Origin: Dehalococcoidia bacterium
Lineage (GTDB): Bacteria > Chloroflexota > Dehalococcoidia > DSTF01 > JALHUB01
Reading direction: 5' to 3'
Length of the DNA: 64,000 bases
Assembly: GCA_030018455.1 (NCBI GenBank)
Contig: JASEFU010000001.1
Span: 559,545-623,544, forward strand
The notes beneath the pieces are model-generated. The model saw nothing but the letters and a program-made list of their open reading frames with translations, was not told the DNA's origin and ran no database searches. The translations under genes and the position numbers were made by a program. This document shows positions 1-14,902 of this stretch, in pieces. Every line of letters begins with the position of its first letter. Position 1 is the stretch's first letter.

Positions 1-437
1 CTCGTGCGGAACCAGACCGCCAGGAAGACGACTCCGGCGAGGGCGCCGTCCACGGTGCGCCTGACTACGGGAAGCGTTACGAGGTCGCTCACGGCGAGAG
101 CGACCCGCGCCCAGGTCGCGCCGTCCGTCAGCCGGTCCGCGGCTCCGAGCAGCGCCCGAAGGGCGACCGTCAGACCCAGGTAGGCTAAAGCCACCCATCC
201 CAAGCCACTCGCGATGTAGATCACGTCTTCGTAAGGAAGGTCTGAGCCCGTAAGAATCCGACTTATCCGATCCCAGTCCGGCGCAGACGTGGGGACCTGA
301 GGCGGACCGTTGAGCCACCAGAGGAGGAACCCCAGGGCGACACCTCCACCTATCAGCGACATTAGAGGCAGGACGCCCTTGCCCGAGGACTCGGCTGGCA
401 CGCCTTCGGCCCTCTGATATCGCGCTAGTTCTGCCAT
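1..437 (-). CDS. Membrane protein, C-terminus cut by window edge
   Basis: An open frame runs from an ATG at 437 to the window edge without a stop. A GGAGGAAGG ribosome-binding site lies about 12 nt upstream. The visible 145 residues have two hydrophobic segments, one near residues 25-42 and one near residues 80-100, with a Pro/Trp-rich stretch between them. A further hydrophobic stretch starts at the edge. This layout recalls the N-terminus of the large membrane proteins with LysM or BTAD domains found beside Tad and type IV secretion genes in Actinobacteria and Chloroflexota, but no such domain is visible here. It is probably the last gene of the tad operon. Function is unassigned. Confidence 0.6.
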   Translation of the reverse strand, partial: MAELARYQRAEGVPAESSGKGVLPLMSLIGGGVALGFLLWWLNGPPQVPTSAPDWDRISRILTGSDLPYEDVIYIASGLGWVALAYLGLTVALRALLGAADRLTDGATWARVALAVSDLVTLPVVRRTVDGALAGVVFLAVWFRT

Positions 438-3411: not shown

Positions 3412-4356
3412 CTAGCCGCCCAGGCCGAGCAGCTCGACCCCGGCGGGGTAAAGCAGCACAACCAGAAACACCGGGAAGATGAACAGCGCCACGGGGAAGA
3501 GCATCCGGACGGTGCTTTTCCCGCCCTCCTCCAAGAGCCGCGCCCGCTTCCGCTCCCGCACCGTCTCCGCCAGGGTGAGCATGGCCTGGCCCAGGGGCAG
3601 CCCCTGCTCCAGCGCCGACTGCCAGGCGTCCGCCATCGACAAAAGCTCCGGGACGCCTTCTCGCTCCGCCAGCGTCCGCAGCCCCTCGGCGTAGGTGGCG
3701 GCTCCCAGGCTAGCCTCTCGAACCACCCCGCCCAGCCCGTCACCCAGGACGCCGCCCACCTGGCGGCTCACGTCGAGCAGAGCCTGCTCCGGCGACATCC
3801 CTGCGCTGGCGCTGATGGCCAGCAGGTCCAGCACCGTAGGCACCTCCATCAGCACCGTAGTGCGCCGCCGCTCCAGGCGCCCCTCCAGCATCCAGTCGGG
3901 CAGGGCAAACCCCACGGCCAATCCGGCGAGCCACATCCACACCGGCCATGCCCCGAAGGGGTGGACGCCGACGACGTTCATCAGGGGGAACGCGGCCAGG
4001 AACACGAGGCCGCTGGCCAGCTTCTGGCCGTAGAACTGGGCCGTGGTCATTCCCGGCCAGCCCAGGGCGAGACGCCGCTCCAGGTCCGCCGTGCCGATAC
4101 CCGCCCGGGCGAGAACCCCGCCCAGAGAGGCGCCGGCGTCCTCCAGCAATGGGCGAAGCAGCCGCTCCAGGGCCGAAGACTTGAACAGCGGGGCGGCTGT
4201 GCGTCCTCGCTCCGCTTCCAGCTCCAGCCGACCCTGAGCCGACAGGAGGCGCAGCCGCGTCGCCAGGTCGGGACGCGGGCGAGCCCAGGGCAGGGCAGTG
4301 ACCATCAGCCACAGCCCGATCCCCAGCATCCCGCCCAGGAGCAGCCCTATCGCCAT
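3412..4356 (-). CDS. tadC: TadC inner-membrane platform protein
   Basis: 314 residues from the ATG at 4356, with GAAAGGG upstream. A longer frame exists but runs back through tadB. It has an N-terminal membrane helix, a basic cytoplasmic stretch, paired helices near residues 95-150, then a T2SSF (GspF-like) domain with EVPTVLDLLAISASAGMSPEQALLDVSRQ and a final helix. TadC pairs with TadB to form the platform on which the CpaF ATPase drives pilin extraction. It overlaps tadB by 10 bp. Confidence 0.9.
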   Translation of the reverse strand: MAIGLLLGGMLGIGLWLMVTALPWARPRPDLATRLRLLSAQGRLELEAERGRTAAPLFKSSALERLLRPLLEDAGASLGGVLARAGIGTADLERRLALGWPGMTTAQFYGQKLASGLVFLAAFPLMNVVGVHPFGAWPVWMWLAGLAVGFALPDWMLEGRLERRRTTVLMEVPTVLDLLAISASAGMSPEQALLDVSRQVGGVLGDGLGGVVREASLGAATYAEGLRTLAEREGVPELLSMADAWQSALEQGLPLGQAMLTLAETVRERKRARLLEEGGKSTVRMLFPVALFIFPVFLVVLLYPAGVELLGLGG

Positions 4357-5216
4357 CGCAGCACCCTTTCGTCGCCGGGCAGCCGGGTCGCCCAGAGCAT
4401 GGCGGCGTAGCCCACCGCCACGCTCAGCAGGGACAGGGCCAGCAGCCCCTGGCCCCTCGGCGACGAGAAGACGTCCAGGTAGGCCGGGTTGATGCCCCGC
4501 ACGGCGAAGATCAGCACCAGGGGCAACGCGGCCACGATGCGCGCCGACAGCACGTTCTTCGCCTGCTGCGCCCGCACCTCCTGCTGCGCCTGGACGGCCT
4601 GCCGCACGGACCGCCCCAGCCCGTCGAGCACCGTGCTCAGGTTGCGGCCTCCCACCCGGTGCGACGTCACCAGGGCCGCCGCCACCGTGTCGAACACCGG
4701 GTCGGCCAGGCGCTCCTGGGCCCGGCGCACCGCCTCCTCGAAGCCGCTCAGTCGCAGGTCCCGCGAGAGGTCGCTCAGGGCGGGCCGCAGGACCTCCGGG
4801 CCGTTGCGGGCCAGGGAGAGGAGGCCCTCTTCGACGCTCATTCCCGTTCGCACCGCAGTCCGCAACACGTCCACGGCGTCCGCCAGCGCCGCCTGTACGG
4901 CGGCTCTTCGCCTCTCGGCCCGCTGGCGCAGGTACCATGCCGGCAGAGCCAGACCGACCACGAACGTCGCTGCGCTCACCACCGGCCAGCCCAAGGCCAG
5001 CTGAGCGGCGGCAGCAGAGGCGGCGCCGGCCCCCGCGCTGAGCAGCAGAAAGTCCCGCGTCCCCACGCCCTCCACCCCGGCCTGGCGCAGGAACTCTTCC
5101 AACCGCGCAGCCGCCGACTGGCGCTCGTGCTTCCCCGTCTCATCGGGCCGCGACGTCAGGGACAGGTAGATCAGCAGCACGCCCAGGCCCAGTGTCAGCG
5201 ATAGCACCAGCGGCAC
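4347..5216 (-). CDS. tadB: TadB inner-membrane platform protein
   Basis: 289 residues from a GTG at 5216, chosen because GAGGAG lies 6 nt upstream. The only longer start is a TTG at 5291 inside the TTGGAG repeat array. The order is membrane helix, soluble linker, helix pair, T2SSF domain (LADAVDVLRTAVRTGMSVEEGLLSLA), then two C-terminal helices, as in TadB. It is separated from cpaF by 113 bp of non-coding repeats, the only sizeable gap in the operon. Expression of tadB-tadC-flp could therefore be tuned separately. Confidence 0.88.
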   Translation of the reverse strand: MPLVLSLTLGLGVLLIYLSLTSRPDETGKHERQSAAARLEEFLRQAGVEGVGTRDFLLLSAGAGAASAAAAQLALGWPVVSAATFVVGLALPAWYLRQRAERRRAAVQAALADAVDVLRTAVRTGMSVEEGLLSLARNGPEVLRPALSDLSRDLRLSGFEEAVRRAQERLADPVFDTVAAALVTSHRVGGRNLSTVLDGLGRSVRQAVQAQQEVRAQQAKNVLSARIVAALPLVLIFAVRGINPAYLDVFSSPRGQGLLALSLLSVAVGYAAMLWATRLPGDERVLRWR

Positions 5217-5252
5217 GGCTCTCTCCTCAGACCTCCATGGTCGCTCCGGTAA

Positions 5253-5323
5253 CTCCAACAGATCTCCAAGAAACGGCCTCTTTTTCTCCAACCCCTATTG
5301 GGCGTTCTCCAATTTCTCTCCAA
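5253..5323 (-). promoter_or_regulatory. Helically phased TTGGAG box array before tadB
   Basis: Five copies of TTGGAG read on the minus strand at 5318-5323, 5307-5312, 5286-5291, 5264-5269 and 5253-5258. Box-to-box steps are 11, 21, 22 and 11 bp, all near whole turns of B-DNA. Several boxes continue as TTGGAGAAA or TTGGAGATC. A second array with the same box and spacing lies at 10437-10646. The layout suggests cooperative binding of a protein to one face of the helix. The binding factor is unknown; the EspR-like regulator at 8844 is a candidate by proximity only. Confidence 0.6.
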
Positions 5324-5329
5324 CTGGCT

Positions 5330-6607
5330 TCACCCTCGTGTTGGCGCCCGCTCCCACGGGTACGCTCCCGCCACCAGGCGCGCCGCGCACCGGGGCCGTA
5401 TCCCTGTCCAGCGCAGCCCGCCCTCCGACAGGGCGAAAAGCTCGCTGCCTGCGACGGCGTCTTCCTCCATGCCCGTCACCTCGTAGATGCTCGCCACCAG
5501 GCGGCGCCCGCTCTGAGCCTCCAGGCGCAGGTGGACCACCAGGTCGATGGCCTCGGCGATCATCTCCGTCACCGACCGCGCCGGCAGGGCCTCCTCAGCC
5601 ATCATGGCGTAGGTGCGCAGCTTGGAGAGGGCCTGGCGGGGGCCGTTGGCGTGGATGGTGCACATGGAGCCCTCGTGGCCGCTGTTCATCGCGGACAGCA
5701 TGTCCAGCGCCTCGGCGCCCCGCACCTCGCCGACGATGATCCGCGTCGGCCGCATGCGCAGGGCGTTTTTCACCAGGCTGCGGATGGACACGGAGCCTAC
5801 CCCTTCCACGTTGGGGAGGCGGGCCTGCAAGCCGACGCAGTCCGGCAGCATCGACTCCAGTTGAAGCTCGGCGGTCTCCTCGATGGTCACGACGCGCTCG
5901 TGGGCGCCGGCGATGGAGGCGCCCAGGGCGTTGAGGCAGGTGGTCTTGCCGCTGCCGGTGCCGCCCGAGATGAGCACGTTCAGCCCAGACTGAACCGCCG
6001 CCTCCAGGAAGGACGCAGCCTCGTTCGTCAGCGTGCCGAGACCCACCAGGTCGTCCAGGGTGCGGGCCCGCAGCAGGAACTTTCGGATGGTGACGTGCGT
6101 CCAGCGGGAGGTGAGGGGCGGGATGACGGCGTTGAGGCGAGACCCGTCGGGGAGGCGGGCGTCCACCATGGGGCTGGTCTCGTCCAGCCGCCGGCCCAGC
6201 CGCCCTACGGCCCGCCGTACCAGCCGCAGCAACTCCTCGTCGTCCTCGAAGAACACGTCGGTCAGCCGCTTCTGCCCGCCCTCGATGGCGAACACCCGGT
6301 GCGGGCCATTGGCGATGATCTCCTCGACGGACGGGTCGTCCAGCAAGGGCTGGAGGGGGCCGAGGCCCAGGATTTCGTCCAGGATGCGCCGGGCCAGCCC
6401 CTCGGGGTCGGAGAGGGGAGGCTCCCCCGCCGAAGCCGACCGCCTGTTCAGGGCGTCGATGCGTCCGGCGATGACGCGGCGCACCCGCTCCACCTCTCCC
6501 GGCCCGGGCTCGGCCAGCGCATCGATGTCCAGCACGTGGCGCAGCTCCTCGCGGACTTCCTCCCGGAGCAGCCGCTCGCGCTCGCCCACCGGCGCCGAAG
6601 CCGCCAT
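5330..6607 (-). CDS. cpaF: CpaF/TadA pilus secretion ATPase
   Basis: 425 residues from an ATG at 6607 that overlaps the cpaE stop (TGATG). The end of cpaE supplies GGAGGAGC as ribosome-binding site. It is a type II/IV secretion ATPase: N-terminal helical domain, then VEEIIANGP, Walker A GGTGSGKTT, Asp box near TIEETAELQL, Walker B RIIVGEVRG, and His box SGHEGSMCTIHANGP. It hydrolyses ATP at the membrane to power Flp pilus assembly with TadB and TadC. Length is normal for the family. Its last codons run close to the repeat array. Confidence 0.95.
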   Translation of the reverse strand: MAASAPVGERERLLREEVREELRHVLDIDALAEPGPGEVERVRRVIAGRIDALNRRSASAGEPPLSDPEGLARRILDEILGLGPLQPLLDDPSVEEIIANGPHRVFAIEGGQKRLTDVFFEDDEELLRLVRRAVGRLGRRLDETSPMVDARLPDGSRLNAVIPPLTSRWTHVTIRKFLLRARTLDDLVGLGTLTNEAASFLEAAVQSGLNVLISGGTGSGKTTCLNALGASIAGAHERVVTIEETAELQLESMLPDCVGLQARLPNVEGVGSVSIRSLVKNALRMRPTRIIVGEVRGAEALDMLSAMNSGHEGSMCTIHANGPRQALSKLRTYAMMAEEALPARSVTEMIAEAIDLVVHLRLEAQSGRRLVASIYEVTGMEEDAVAGSELFALSEGGLRWTGIRPRCAARLVAGAYPWERAPTRG

Positions 6608-7857
6608 CAGCTCCTCCGCACTCCCTTCAGGGCGAAGGGGAACCGGCGCGGGCTGCCAGTCACTGCCCGCTCCTCGGTTACGCTCTCGGCCAGGAGGAGC
6701 GCGCCCAGCCCCCTCACCTCCCGGGCGACCGGGCCGCCCGCCGCTGTGACGGGCAGCTGCTCCGCCACCGCTCGCCGCACGGCCCGACGGTCCTCCGGCA
6801 GCACCGCCAGGACGGGGAGGTCCAGCGCCCGCTCCACCTCCTCCGCCGCGTAATGCTCGCGACCCTCCCTGCGGTTCAGCACGACGCCCACAGCTTCCGG
6901 CGCCACGCCCAGGCCCTCGCGGACGTGCCGGATGACAACGCGGGCGTTCCACAGCGCCACCAGGTCGGCACCCACCACGACCAGCAACCGGTCTGCTCCA
7001 CGGAGGACGGCGTCGGAGGCGGGGGACGAGGCGCCAGCAACGACTTCTCCCACGTCCACCAGCACGTCGTCGAACGTCTCTCGCAGGGTTGTGAAGGCCG
7101 CCGTGACCAGCTCCGCGGACATGCCGAGCCCGCTGTCCGGCCTCTCCAGGCCGGACAGCACCATGAACCCCGGCCCCTCCTGAAGCTCCTCCTCCACGGC
7201 GCCCGCGGCCGACGCTCCGTTGCGCCCGAAGGCCAGGCCCACCAACCCGCGGCGCGGGTCCAGGTCGAGGTAGGGGCCGACGTTGCCGCCCCGGAGGTCC
7301 GCGTCCACCAACACGACGCGGCGGCCCCGCTCCGACAGCGCGGCTGCCAGGCCGATGGCCACCGTGGTCACCCCCGGCGCACCCTTACCGCTCAGCAGGG
7401 CGATGACGCGCCCCCCGGCGGGGCCGCTCCCCCCACTCGTCTTCTCTTCCATCTGGCGTCCATCACCAGCAGGCGAGGCCCCGTAAACGGCGCCCCGCTC
7501 CACGGCCTGGCGCACTGCATCGGTCACTTCCTGGCCCGAACAGCCGCCGGGAAGGATGTGCGCTAGGGCCGCGTACTTCTCGATATCGGTGGGCTCGGCC
7601 AGCAACACCAGCGGCAATTGCGCCTCTCGAATAGCCAGCAGGGTGGCGGTCGTGAGGCGATGGAGGTCAGTCGAAGCCAGGGCTACATCTGTGTCGGACG
7701 CCTGCGCCCGCTCGGCGAGTGACGGCCCGTCCAGGCAGCGTTCCGCCACCACCAAGCCCTCGGCTGAGAGGGCGTCACGCAGCCGCCTCTCCCTCTCGGG
7801 GTTGCCAACAGCTAGGAGGACCCGTATCGGAGGTCGATGGTCACCGGCGTCTGCCAC
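6607..7857 (-). CDS. cpaE: CpaE/TadZ localisation ATPase
   Basis: 416 residues from a GTG at 7857. The alternative TTG at 7926 would overlap cpaB by 47 bp. The N-terminal 120 residues look like an atypical receiver domain (VLLAVGNPERERRLRDAL). The C-terminal part is a MinD/ParA-type fold with a deviant Walker A, SGKGAPGVTTVAIGLA, in which Val replaces the second Lys. VLVDADLRGGN follows as the second switch. TadZ proteins place the pilus machine at its cellular site. The weakened Walker A matches known atypical TadZ proteins, so ATPase activity may be low. Confidence 0.88.
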   Translation of the reverse strand: MADAGDHRPPIRVLLAVGNPERERRLRDALSAEGLVVAERCLDGPSLAERAQASDTDVALASTDLHRLTTATLLAIREAQLPLVLLAEPTDIEKYAALAHILPGGCSGQEVTDAVRQAVERGAVYGASPAGDGRQMEEKTSGGSGPAGGRVIALLSGKGAPGVTTVAIGLAAALSERGRRVVLVDADLRGGNVGPYLDLDPRRGLVGLAFGRNGASAAGAVEEELQEGPGFMVLSGLERPDSGLGMSAELVTAAFTTLRETFDDVLVDVGEVVAGASSPASDAVLRGADRLLVVVGADLVALWNARVVIRHVREGLGVAPEAVGVVLNRREGREHYAAEEVERALDLPVLAVLPEDRRAVRRAVAEQLPVTAAGGPVAREVRGLGALLLAESVTEERAVTGSPRRFPFALKGVRRS

Positions 7858-7879
7858 GGCACTTCCGCCTTCCCGACCT

Positions 7880-8581
7880 TCACGGCGCCGACGTTCCGGA
7901 GCCGCTTTCCGGCGCCAGGAGAGCAAGCGTCACGTCGCCATTCACCACGGCGTGGGCGAGGAGCTCCGCCTCGGACTTGGGCACGACGAGCGTCACGTTC
8001 GTCAACCCCCTGTCCGCCTCGGCGCCGTCGGCGCCCCTTCCGATGGCGATGCGTCCCGGCTCCAGGGACACGTGGTAGACGACAGCGCGCTCCAGCAGCG
8101 TCACGGTCCGGCTCTCCGGCTTCCCTTTGTTGGTCGTGGCCAGGACTGCCACGGTGTCCCCAGGCCGCAGGCCCGGATACACGGCGTCGGCCTCGACGGG
8201 TACGGTCACGGCCACGTCGTTGGGGCCGATGATCGGGCCGGAGGCTAGGTCCGGCCACACCACCATCTCGCCGGCGTGGACCGTCGTGCCGGCGGTATGG
8301 CCCACTACCTGGTCAAGCTCGCCCTCCCTGACCGCCAGGGAGGAGAGGCTCCCTTCCAGGCGCACCCGCGCCACCGACAGGTCGTCGGCCTGGATGGTGT
8401 GTCCCGCCGGAAAGTCTCGGGCGGCTACGAGAACCGGCACGGTCTCCGACGTGGACCCCCAGAAAAGAAGGCCGCCTACAACCGAGGCGGCCACCAGAGC
8501 GACGCCGAGCAGCATACGGCCATCCAGCCCTGCAGGGGCTGCCAAACCCATCCAGCGGCGCCGAGCGGTCGTCGTTGCCAT
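7880..8581 (-). CDS. cpaB: CpaB/RcpC pilus assembly protein with SAF domain
   Basis: 233 residues, ATG start, first gene of the tad operon. One membrane helix (residues 22-42) is followed by an SAF domain (VLVAARDFPAGHTIQADDLSVARV) and an RcpC/CpaB-like domain (AVTVPVEADAVYPGLRPGDTVAVLAT). CpaB in diderms is periplasmic and works with the secretin CpaC. Here no secretin gene is adjacent, as expected for a monoderm envelope. Confidence 0.9.
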   Translation of the reverse strand: MATTTARRRWMGLAAPAGLDGRMLLGVALVAASVVGGLLFWGSTSETVPVLVAARDFPAGHTIQADDLSVARVRLEGSLSSLAVREGELDQVVGHTAGTTVHAGEMVVWPDLASGPIIGPNDVAVTVPVEADAVYPGLRPGDTVAVLATTNKGKPESRTVTLLERAVVYHVSLEPGRIAIGRGADGAEADRGLTNVTLVVPKSEAELLAHAVVNGDVTLALLAPESGSGTSAP

Positions 8582-8646
8582 GGCTCTCTCTGCCTGCCTG
8601 CGAGCCGGAACAGGTTGTCGTCGGGGCGGGGAAGCAGACGCCTCTC

Positions 8647-8676
8647 ATCATAAAAGGGTGGCTGCGGCTATGTCAA
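8647..8676 (-). promoter_or_regulatory. Sigma70-type promoter of the tad operon
   Basis: On the minus strand TTGACA (8671-8676) and TATGAT (8647-8652) are separated by 18 bp. Transcription would start near 8640, about 60 nt before the cpaB ATG. An imperfect dyad made of GTGAACGAAAC and GTAACGTTTTCAC lies just upstream at 8682-8710. It sits between this promoter and the divergent regulator gene, a natural place for an operator. Confidence 0.72.
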
Positions 8677-8843
8677 CCCTTGTGAACGAAACTTATTGTA
8701 ACGTTTTCACTACGCCTCAGTTCCTATACACTGGAAGCGACGCAACGCGCGTCAGCGCCCCCACCATGGGGGCCACATTCGAGGCGCGCCCATCGCCCCG
8801 ACTGGTCGGGGCACTGCCGGGCGCTGAAAGGGGGAGAAGAGCT

Positions 8844-9257
8844 GTGAGTGCCACCCTAGCGGAGAGGATCGACTGCCTCTTCCGCACCCACCTCAGCCCT
8901 CGCGGTCGCGAGTACAGCTACCGGGAGGTGGCGGCGGCGATCTCCAAGAGAGACGGCCGGGAGGGGGAGACCATCTCGGCCGCCTACATCTGGGGGCTGA
9001 GGACCGGCGCCAAGGACAACCCCACCATGAGGCACCTACAGGCGCTGGCCCGCTTCTTCCAGGTGTCGCCGGCCTATTTCTTCGAGGAGGAGCTCACCGA
9101 GTTCCCGGAGACGGAGGTGCGGCTGCTCGCCGCGTCGCGCCCGGAGACTCTGCGCCGCCTGGCAGTGACGCTGCTGGGGCTGAGCGACGAGAGCCTGAAC
9201 GCTGTGCTCAGCCTGGCCTGCCGGATGCGGCGGCTGGAGGGCCTGCCGGTCGAGTAG
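8844..9257 (+). CDS. XRE-family regulator, EspR-like
   Basis: 137 residues from a GTG at 8844 with GGGGGAGAAGA just upstream. Longer in-frame starts run back through the tad promoter. The N-terminal half is an HTH of the EspR type: ERIDCLFRTH, SYREVAAAISKRDG, then SAAYIWGLRTGAKDNPTMRHL and FFQVSPAYFFEEE. The C-terminal helices (LSDESLNAVLSLACRMRRLEG) probably dimerise it. EspR-like proteins bind DNA as dimers that cooperate over distance. Divergent placement suggests control of the tad operon and of itself; this is inference. Confidence 0.82.
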   Translation: MSATLAERIDCLFRTHLSPRGREYSYREVAAAISKRDGREGETISAAYIWGLRTGAKDNPTMRHLQALARFFQVSPAYFFEEELTEFPETEVRLLAASRPETLRRLAVTLLGLSDESLNAVLSLACRMRRLEGLPVE

Positions 9258-9441
9258 GCGGCCGGCTCGGCTTACCTGGGGACGACCCAGTCTGTCGCTG
9301 CTTCATCCCTGTCTGCCGGATTCACCCTGTCAGCGGTGAGCAACCACATTCAGCGTGAGGGTGAGTCTACAGTGGAGAACCCCGCCAGTGCTTGGTCCAA
9401 ACAACCCACCCAGGGCAGGAGAGTGTCGACACGCTCCCTGG

Positions 9442-10116
9442 CTAGTCGCCTCCTGGCAAGAGATCCGCAAAACAGAAGCCGTCGCGGACCACGCGGTCAC
9501 CTACCGTGACGGCGATCGGCGAGCGGAAGTTCGGGCCGTCATGAACGAACGTGTGGAACTCTCCGTTCTCGCCGCAGGGGTCGACGCCTCTTGGCAGGTC
9601 ATCGAGGAGAGCGTCGTCATACCTCCTTCCAGCGAAGTCCGAGGGCACCACCTTCGGGTCAACGCAGACAAGGGTCGCCCGGAAGCCACTGCGGATAAGC
9701 CACCTCGAGAGGCGCCGAGTATCCTCGCCCCAGATCGGGAAGACCGGATGTAGCCCGGTGCCAGCCAGCCTTTGCTCCCGGTAGGAACGAACCTCTTCCA
9801 GGAAGAGGTCGCCGAAGCCGATGGCTCCGACCCCATCGGTCACCAGCCCCTCGACGGCCTTCGCCATGGCCGTCTCGTACGTCTCCATCGAGCAGGCCGC
9901 CGGGATGGGGACGGTGTACAGCCGCAACTCCAGGGCCGCGGCTTGAGCCGCAAGCAGTTCTTCTCGCACTCCGGACATGCTGACCCGCCTGTAGTCTTCG
10001 GTAATGGTGGTGAACAGCCCGACCACCTCGTAGCCTGGGTTTGCTTGGAGCCGCCAGAGGGCGACGGCGCTGTCCTTGCCGCAACTCCACGCCATCACCG
10101 CTCGAATTGCCGTCAC
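9442..10116 (-). CDS. Diphthine-ammonia ligase-like ATP pyrophosphatase
   Basis: 224 residues from a GTG. The N-terminus has the PP-loop SCGKDSAVALW of the DUF71/ATP_bind_4 family. The family core follows: YEVVGLFTTI, then GIGFGDLFLEEVRSYRE and PIWGEDTRRL, with CVDPKV and a final ENGEFHTFVHDGP. Eukaryotic members amidate diphthine on EF2. Bacterial ones lack that substrate and their reaction is unknown, although adenylation followed by amidation is likely. It stands alone, away from the tad genes. Confidence 0.85.
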   Translation of the reverse strand: MTAIRAVMAWSCGKDSAVALWRLQANPGYEVVGLFTTITEDYRRVSMSGVREELLAAQAAALELRLYTVPIPAACSMETYETAMAKAVEGLVTDGVGAIGFGDLFLEEVRSYREQRLAGTGLHPVFPIWGEDTRRLSRWLIRSGFRATLVCVDPKVVPSDFAGRRYDDALLDDLPRGVDPCGENGEFHTFVHDGPNFRSPIAVTVGDRVVRDGFCFADLLPGGD

Positions 10117-10436
10117 ACCTAAGAGTCTAGGCTAGGCGGACCCCAGGATGTAGCGCCATCTCACCAGGTATAGGGGCTCCTGCGCCACGTACTTCCCCGA
10201 ACCGAAGCTGGGCTGACGAACGCACAGAGGTCCAGAGCAAGTAAGTCCCAAGAACGTCAAGACAGGATCGGATGACGAAAAAGGAGGGTGTGCCGACAAA
10301 CCACTACTCCAAGTCCCAGGTGTCCTTCGAGTCTTCAGTCGCTTGGCGTGGAACTACCACACTCGGTTCATCTTTCCTTGATGGGTGGAGTGCTTAGCAC
10401 AAATCTAAAAAGCATATTAGCCCCCCTCAAATTTTT

Positions 10437-10646
10437 CTCCAATCCATCTCCAACCCCTACTACGGCGGCCCTTGGCCGGAGCGCCTCTAGGTTCAGATGC
10501 CGCGATCGCTGGCCTGCCCCGGCTCATTCACTCGCGGCGATCCTCACGTCTCGCCCCATCTTCCTCCTTCACGCCCCGACGGCGAAATTGGAGAAAAGAG
10601 GCCTCGATTGGAGAAAACGGGCCGGAATCTTGGAGATCCATTGGAG
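10437..10646. promoter_or_regulatory. Second TTGGAG box array, inverted halves
   Basis: Two boxes read on the minus strand (10437-10442, 10448-10453; 11 bp apart). Four read on the plus strand, starting at 10588, 10608, 10630 and 10641 (steps 20, 22 and 11 bp). The plus-strand part aligns without gaps over about 45 bp with the array before tadB: both share TTGGAGAAAA, then CTTGGAGATC, then TTGGAG and ACC. The two halves face each other across about 135 bp. No gene starts immediately beside it. Confidence 0.55.
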
Positions 10647-11060
10647 ACACCTCAGCTAGGCTTGGCCCTGTGAAAAGCGCGTTTCGTCGGTATCGCCAGA
10701 AGACAAACTGACCGGACGGCCCGTCCGAGAACCTGGATGGATCAACCCGCAAGGGAAACGAGCTCGCTCTCCAGGCCAGGCGTCGAACAGGGCAGCAGAA
10801 GCCAGTAGGGAATCAGCGAAAGGAGGTGTCAACGAGGAGTCCAGGACACGCACGCGCAACACGCCGAACGAACGCACCCACCAGAAGGGAGGACATCGGA
10901 GACCTAGCCACGTAGCATACTCAAGCCCCGACGCTCGGGGCGACAAGCCAATCTCATAGAAGCCCCACCGACGCCGGACAGCCATCGTCGACCCGCCTCG
11001 GTCCGGCCCGCAGGCGACGGGCGCCGCGCCGTTGAAGTCTCGCCCGCTGCCTGCAACGCA

Positions 11061-11092
11061 GAAGCCCCACAGGGTTCGCCCTACGGGGCTTC
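11061..11092. terminator. GC-rich hairpin with TTCG loop
   Basis: GAAGCCCC pairs with GGGGCTTC around an inner AGGG-TTCG-CCCT stem-loop. The flanking T content is low, so this may be a factor-dependent terminator, an insulator or a leader structure of the accessory operon starting at 11136, rather than a classic intrinsic terminator. Confidence 0.45.
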
Positions 11093-11135
11093 CTGCATTC
11101 TCTCAGAACATCAGAACATTCAAAGGAGGAACGGA

Positions 11136-14779: not shown

Positions 14780-14902
14780 ATGTGGTCGAGAAGCACCCGA
14801 AGGCAGGGCGGACGGCGCTCGCCGGGTCCGGTCCGCATCGCCGCGCTGATGAGCAGCGTCGCCTTCGTGGTGGCGGTGCTGTCGAAGGTCTGGCCCCTGT
14901 AG
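14780..14902 (+). CDS. Possible 40-residue membrane peptide
   Basis: An ATG preceded by a GGGGGAA run opens a 40-residue frame. It has a basic N-terminus (WSRSTRRQGGRRS) and one hydrophobic segment (IAALMSSVAFVVAVLSKVW). It ends just before the 22-bp palindrome. The start signal is good, but the frame is short and has no recognised homologue. It could be a real small membrane protein of the element or chance. Confidence 0.35.
   Translation: MWSRSTRRQGGRRSPGPVRIAALMSSVAFVVAVLSKVWPL

Follow-up and report, generated by a model that had tools for sequence, protein, structure and literature searches.

The window analysed here is a stretch of 64,000 nucleotides (nt) from a Dehalococcoidia bacterium (C1:559545-623544 of a 2.38-Mb genome). 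Together with the sequence beyond its left edge, it carries a cluster of Tad pilus and type IV secretion system (T4SS) genes in which arrays of the hexamer TTGGAG are found (Table 1). On the minus strand, the order is cpaB, cpaE, cpaF, array 1, tadB, tadC, tadE-like genes, hypothetical genes and a gene encoding a protein with LysM and BTAD domains. Beyond this LysM-BTAD gene lie a divergent ATPase gene and then array 3 with a T4SS operon, in which trbL is followed by genes for NlpC/P60, PrgI, VirB4, a DnaG-like primase and a coupling-protein-like ATPase.

Table 1. Arrays, promoter elements, genes and RNA features of the cluster (window coordinates unless C1 is given).
Feature	Position	Strand	Remarks
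Array 1, five TTGGAG boxes, steps 11-21-22-11	5253..5323	-	between cpaF and tadB
-10-like GACCAT	5237..5242	-	10 nt past 3'-most box of array 1; putative promoter of tadB...regulator operon
tadB (T2SSF domain)	4347..5216	-	first gene after array 1; GTG start at 5216 inferred from conservation
LysM-TM-wHTH-BTAD (SARP-like) gene, 5' end	1..437	-	remainder outside window, to ~C1:556664
EspR homologue (XRE)	8844..9257	+	PDB EspR 3r1f, E = 6e-16; unlikely array binder
Array 2 left half, two TTGGAG boxes at 11 bp	10437..10453	-	pointing left
TAATAT	10414..10419	-	17 nt past left box; sigma70-like divergent promoter, box at -35 position
Array 2 right half, four TTGGAG boxes, steps 20-22-11	10588..10646	+	
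-10-like TAGGCT	10657..10662	+	10 nt past last box of array 2; matched by promoter profile not trained on array 2
Conserved non-coding RNA, ~430 nt	10669..11095	+	element-linked; start inferred
RNA structured core	10675..10802	+	covariance model R1, 112.7 bits, E = 3e-26; own copy in training set
Terminator-like hairpin at RNA 3' end	11058..11097	+	-26 kcal/mol; short T run here, T5 in G040
Array 3, six TTGGAG boxes, steps 11-20-9-13-11	C1:554787-554856		~4.7 kb left of window

Within the two arrays of the window, TTGGAG boxes lie at positions 5253, 5264, 5286, 5307 and 5318, all on the minus strand (site 1), and at 10437 and 10448 on the minus strand and 10588, 10608, 10630 and 10641 on the plus strand (site 2), with successive steps of 11, 22, 21 and 11 bp and of 11, (140), 20, 22 and 11 bp, respectively. 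All eleven positions agree with the original prediction, a reading of the window's sequence which had described two arrays with nine steps close to whole helical turns. Both arrays are real and eight of the nine steps (11, 20, 21 or 22 bp) are as described, but the ninth is the 140-bp gap in site 2, and the opposite strand of the two left boxes of that site had been omitted. The segment said to align between the sites is present in both as TTGGAG-N16-TTGGAG-N5-TTGGAG. The window contains 38 copies of the hexamer, where 25.4 ± 4.5 would be expected, and in 200 second-order Markov copies of the window TTGGAG never exceeded two occurrences per 71 bp (maximum 3-4 for any hexamer), in line with the earlier claim that five boxes in 71 bp lie beyond chance. 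Genome-wide, exact TTGGAG-N5-TTGGAG was found six times, all in C1:554787-570190 (~15 kb), and a three-box search allowing up to three mismatches gave three exact arrays and one 3-mismatch match. Array 3 sits 84 nt upstream of the trbL-like gene. The TTGGAG arrays are real and far above chance.

VirB4 relatives with 64-86% identity are present in other Chloroflexota, in up to several copies per genome. TTGGAG arrays were absent from about 20 related T4SS/Tad elements of these bacteria, and a lineage-specific oddity was therefore suspected, a view that was revised once other box spellings were searched. In an unbiased search for phased hexamers, most related elements showed arrays with the spacing 11-20/21-22-11 but other boxes, among them TTGGACT, TTGGAACG and TTAGAA. 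These arrays occupy the cpaF-tadB interval, precede trbL and, in many elements, also precede prgI; there are three or four per element, each 5' of an operon or RNA. The trbL array of L023 (box TGGACT) has steps of 11-20-9-13-11, identical to those of array 3. Elements within one genome can differ in their box, as shown for TTGGACT and TTAGAA in genome G041, and in the most divergent elements (G050, G051) the boxes are different or unclear. The class-wide search covered 148 genomes; a VirB4 search of viral contigs gave no match. In L051, L032, L033, L038 and others, trbL and prgI belong to distinct, divergently oriented operons with one array each, while in the genome studied here trbL and prgI apparently form one operon under one array. 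An extra TTGGAAC array precedes a lipoprotein-like open reading frame (ORF) at L028:7293 (+), with GGCCAT, which breaks the rule described below, at the -10 position.

The arrays share a fixed distance to a -10-like sequence. For this comparison, 47 upstream regions were aligned by their TTGGA cores, each placed at its expected offset, with downstream sequence left unused. NANNNT, more narrowly (C/G)ANNNT, starts exactly 10 nt past the last 6-nt box in 46 of the 47, and at any other spacer in at most two. These hexamers are mostly CACGCT, CAGGAT, CAAGCT and CACAGT, and in the tadB promoters of 15 elements the -10-like element is kept as (C/G)AGNAT / CATCCT. A promoter profile trained on 46 regions, with array 2 left out, returned only the expected promoters in the window, its two promoter-type arrays scoring 33-34 bits where Markov copies reached 9.1 at most; it also detected ncRNA promoters outside its training set, of which four have TAGGCT. 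Activators of the Streptomyces antibiotic regulatory protein (SARP) family bind direct repeats spaced by 11 or 22 bp, the 3' copy lying 8 bp from the -10; in the AfsR promoter this -10 is CACTGT, and a T at -27 is critical (PMC10936776). The element promoters likewise have repeats 11 or 22 bp apart, one step being 20/21 rather than 22, and a 3' repeat at a fixed short distance from a poor -10 (here CANNNT). Their geometry is that of SARP activators such as AfsR, and the promoter type is already known from AfsR/afs box, ActII-4 and DnrI type promoters (PMC10936776). With the first base of the -10 placed at -12, the second T of the last TTGGAG would fall at -27, in apparent register with the AfsR T-27. 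Unlike the afs box, the arrays comprise four to six boxes instead of two, and their spelling varies per element.

No ORF lies downstream of the right half of array 2; instead, a sequence conserved in relatives is found there. A pattern search of the element genomes gave 17 homologues of this RNA, and upstream of most of them there are boxes and a -10, which is often TAGGCT. The RNA ends in a GC-rich hairpin that some relatives follow with a T-run. Its 130-nt core contains six helices, with 95.4% of cells paired against ≤48% with slid partners. Two-sided, compensatory changes were seen in 20 cells, compared with 7.0 ± 2.0 after shuffling. Across 301 genomes of the phylum, the RNA model returned the own copy and one weak match; a motif match in a viral contig was discarded as chance, the rest of the RNA being missing there. 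The shared promoter type suggests that the RNA acts together with the pilus and the T4SS. Large ncRNAs such as OLE, GOLLD and ROOL are also long, conserved, structured and partly linked to mobile DNA; the RNA described here differs from them in having no Rfam match above gathering score and no shown sequence relation. One RNA copy, L150 (G048:C1:847975), has TAGGCT without boxes and is perhaps a relic or differently controlled. Just past the RNA terminator, L138, L143, L153 and others encode a membrane-like protein of about 40 amino acids (aa) ending in KSWPF, and a similar sequence ending in KVWPL lies near window positions 14800-14902.

The best candidate for a protein reading the boxes is the 1105-aa product of the LysM-BTAD gene, which contains wall-binding LysM, weak Trans_reg_C and BTAD domains, the last above cut-off (PF03704, E = 4e-16). 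The profile of this family covered both the winged helix-turn-helix (wHTH) and the BTAD of EmbR (2fez, E = 6e-5) and matched AfsR (8hvr) weakly (0.015). Because the own protein lies mostly outside the window, the SARP-like domain was modelled on the L034 relative, folded with a two-sequence alignment, and EmbR ranked second in Foldseek for this model. The gene is found in 15/15 element-bearing genomes, where it follows the tad genes wherever this region is covered, and it encodes the only strong BTAD protein of the own genome. Hydrophobic segments resembling transmembrane (TM) helices flank LysM on both sides in most homologues checked, and the predicted topology therefore comprises N-terminal TM helices, LysM outside, a further TM helix and a cytoplasmic wHTH-BTAD.

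Taken together, the pilus, the T4SS and the RNA are probably turned on jointly by a membrane-anchored activator of SARP type, which acts through element-specific boxes. The arrays would then be the operator/promoter regions of one regulon on a conjugative-element-like cluster. The LysM-BTAD protein, presumably binding the boxes and activating transcription, would occupy the direct repeats side by side on one helix face, one protomer per box, and recruit RNA polymerase to the weak CANNNT-type -10 located 10 nt past the last box, as AfsR does. Switching on the tadB-tadC-tadE-...-regulator operon would provide positive feedback, and the trbL T4SS operon (in many relatives also the separate prgI operon) and the structured ncRNA would be switched on as well, with LysM possibly sensing the wall. 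As the spelling of the boxes is particular to each element, coresident elements may be under independent control.

Several observations weigh against this reading. The Trans_reg_C match (PF00486) scored 19.8 bits, below the Pfam cut-off of 26.2, and the wHTH half of the L034 model had a predicted local distance difference test score (pLDDT) below 50. Box distances correlated with recognition-helix distances (Mantel r 0.76), but r was equally high for BTAD (0.78) and LysM (0.77) distances and the partial r was only 0.12. Box/recognition-helix covariation was therefore rejected as proof of the reader, being neither specific to the recognition helix nor separable from relatedness, and the case for the LysM-BTAD protein is built on co-occurrence, family biochemistry and geometry. 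Promoters taken from related elements cannot be counted as fully independent of one another, the geometry of the left-facing pair of array 2 is different (box-17-TAATAT), and a simple scan of a Microbacterium Tad plasmid with a LysM-BTAD gene found no phased array. As regards the left-facing promoter itself, a box-17-TAATAT-like layout with own boxes was seen in the relatives G040, G041, G042, G043, G044 and G046, and no consistent downstream gene was found across relatives.

Other readers of the boxes were also considered. An OmpR/PhoB-type response regulator encoded elsewhere, or another direct-repeat binder, would fit the use of 10-11-bp direct repeats by OmpR-type wHTH proteins in general and would not be at odds with a covariation analysis that gave no proof for the SARP-like protein. 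It is nevertheless rather unlikely, given that the boxes differ between elements even within genome G041, which fits an element-encoded reader better than a shared host regulator, and that all element genomes encode the LysM-BTAD protein as a DNA-binding candidate. The original prediction had pointed to the EspR-like XRE protein and called a regulatory loop conceivable; in this reading, the protein would bind both arrays and loop or bridge the DNA over the tad operon. Its gene, which lies at 8844 between the arrays, does encode a genuine EspR homologue, proteins of the EspR type have several binding sites, and the idea of a multi-site regulatory, protein-binding-type array tied to the tad operon appears well founded. 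However, the homologue is found in just 3/15 element-bearing genomes and the arrays in nearly all 15, so that EspR binding is unsupported. The loop also lost its support because each array resembles a separate promoter, directional and with its own -10-like element at a fixed 10 nt, which a looping architectural protein does not require. A role of the EspR homologue as binder or bridge is thus very unlikely.

The arrays might also not be promoters at all. Phased direct repeats are found in iterons and oriT regions, and the cluster contains conjugation-type genes and DnaG-like primases, as might be expected if the arrays were iterons or sites for oriT accessory proteins of a plasmid-like element. 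This is highly improbable in view of the three or four arrays of each element, every one of which stands 5' of an operon or RNA and has its -10-like element exactly 10 nt away. Chance clustering or a dispersed mobile repeat, for which nothing but the similarity of the copies speaks, can be dismissed: the six genome matches are confined to 15 kb, and chance is refuted by the Markov controls and by the architecture kept in other genomes.

The SARP-type regulator would act on a cluster whose gene set (Tad pilus, T4SS and ncRNA) is conjugative-element-like. VirB4, a coupling ATPase and channel proteins, the marks of an integrative conjugative element or conjugative plasmid, were all found here, with TrbL, PrgI and TraG P-loop/VirB4 recognized by family match. 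The coupling ATPase (L007 184-2712) had no family match in NCBIfam and shows VirD4-like motifs identified by eye. No relaxase or integrase was seen among the scanned proteins of the element, whose ends are undefined; no systematic search for these two enzymes was made. Farther to the right are genes for two helicases (SNF2 and UvrD), a further primase and a Rad52-like protein. The ATPase gene between array 3 and the regulator (L007:10064-11552, +) is spread across two reading frames and is possibly a pseudogene.

SARP regulators combine an OmpR-type wHTH with BTAD (PMC10936776); the candidate here has the BTAD and, before it, a putative wHTH with a weak match. In contrast to SARPs, this candidate has a predicted membrane anchor, LysM domains and a C-terminal SARP domain, and it belongs to Chloroflexota, with Tad/T4SS genes and an ncRNA rather than antibiotic genes as putative targets. 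On plasmid pIMPLE-HL096PA1, the LysM+BTAD protein PAGK_2369 in the Tad locus is labelled a pilus assembly protein (PMC3666418). There and on Microbacterium sp. No. 7 plasmid A, a LysM-BTAD gene likewise lies among or just after plasmid Tad genes, but these proteins are annotated as TadB/Flp assembly or plain LysM proteins with no regulator role. CadC/ToxR-type activators share the membrane-anchored OmpR-type wHTH of a one-component regulator, predicted here, but their wHTH is N-terminal, whereas the putative one here is C-terminal with LysM before and BTAD after it. EspR of Mycobacterium tuberculosis resembles the system through the homologous 8844 protein, which differs in not being universal in the element, the arrays being independent of its presence. 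Searches of a collection of papers on BTAD/LysM in Chloroflexi, on SARP with Tad and T4SS, and on Dehalococcoidia with Tad and T4SS found nothing. New are the regulon, the variety of boxes on one fixed scaffold, the RNA family and the proposed assignment of a membrane-anchored SARP. A bolder proposal, tentative and on balance doubtful, is an undescribed regulon in which a wall-anchored transmembrane SARP would govern Tad pili, T4SS and large structured RNAs of a new class that act in the transfer apparatus or its control, with diversified boxes insulating coresident elements.

The analysis provides a complete testable regulon for an unstudied Chloroflexota Tad/T4SS element, with aligned promoters, a candidate regulator and a co-regulated RNA. 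The natural series of operator spellings on a fixed promoter scaffold could help to explain how wHTH specificity changes, and the RNA family has a putative role in DNA transfer that is open to direct testing. If the assignment is true, SARP-type activation would extend to a membrane-anchored, LysM-bearing regulator.
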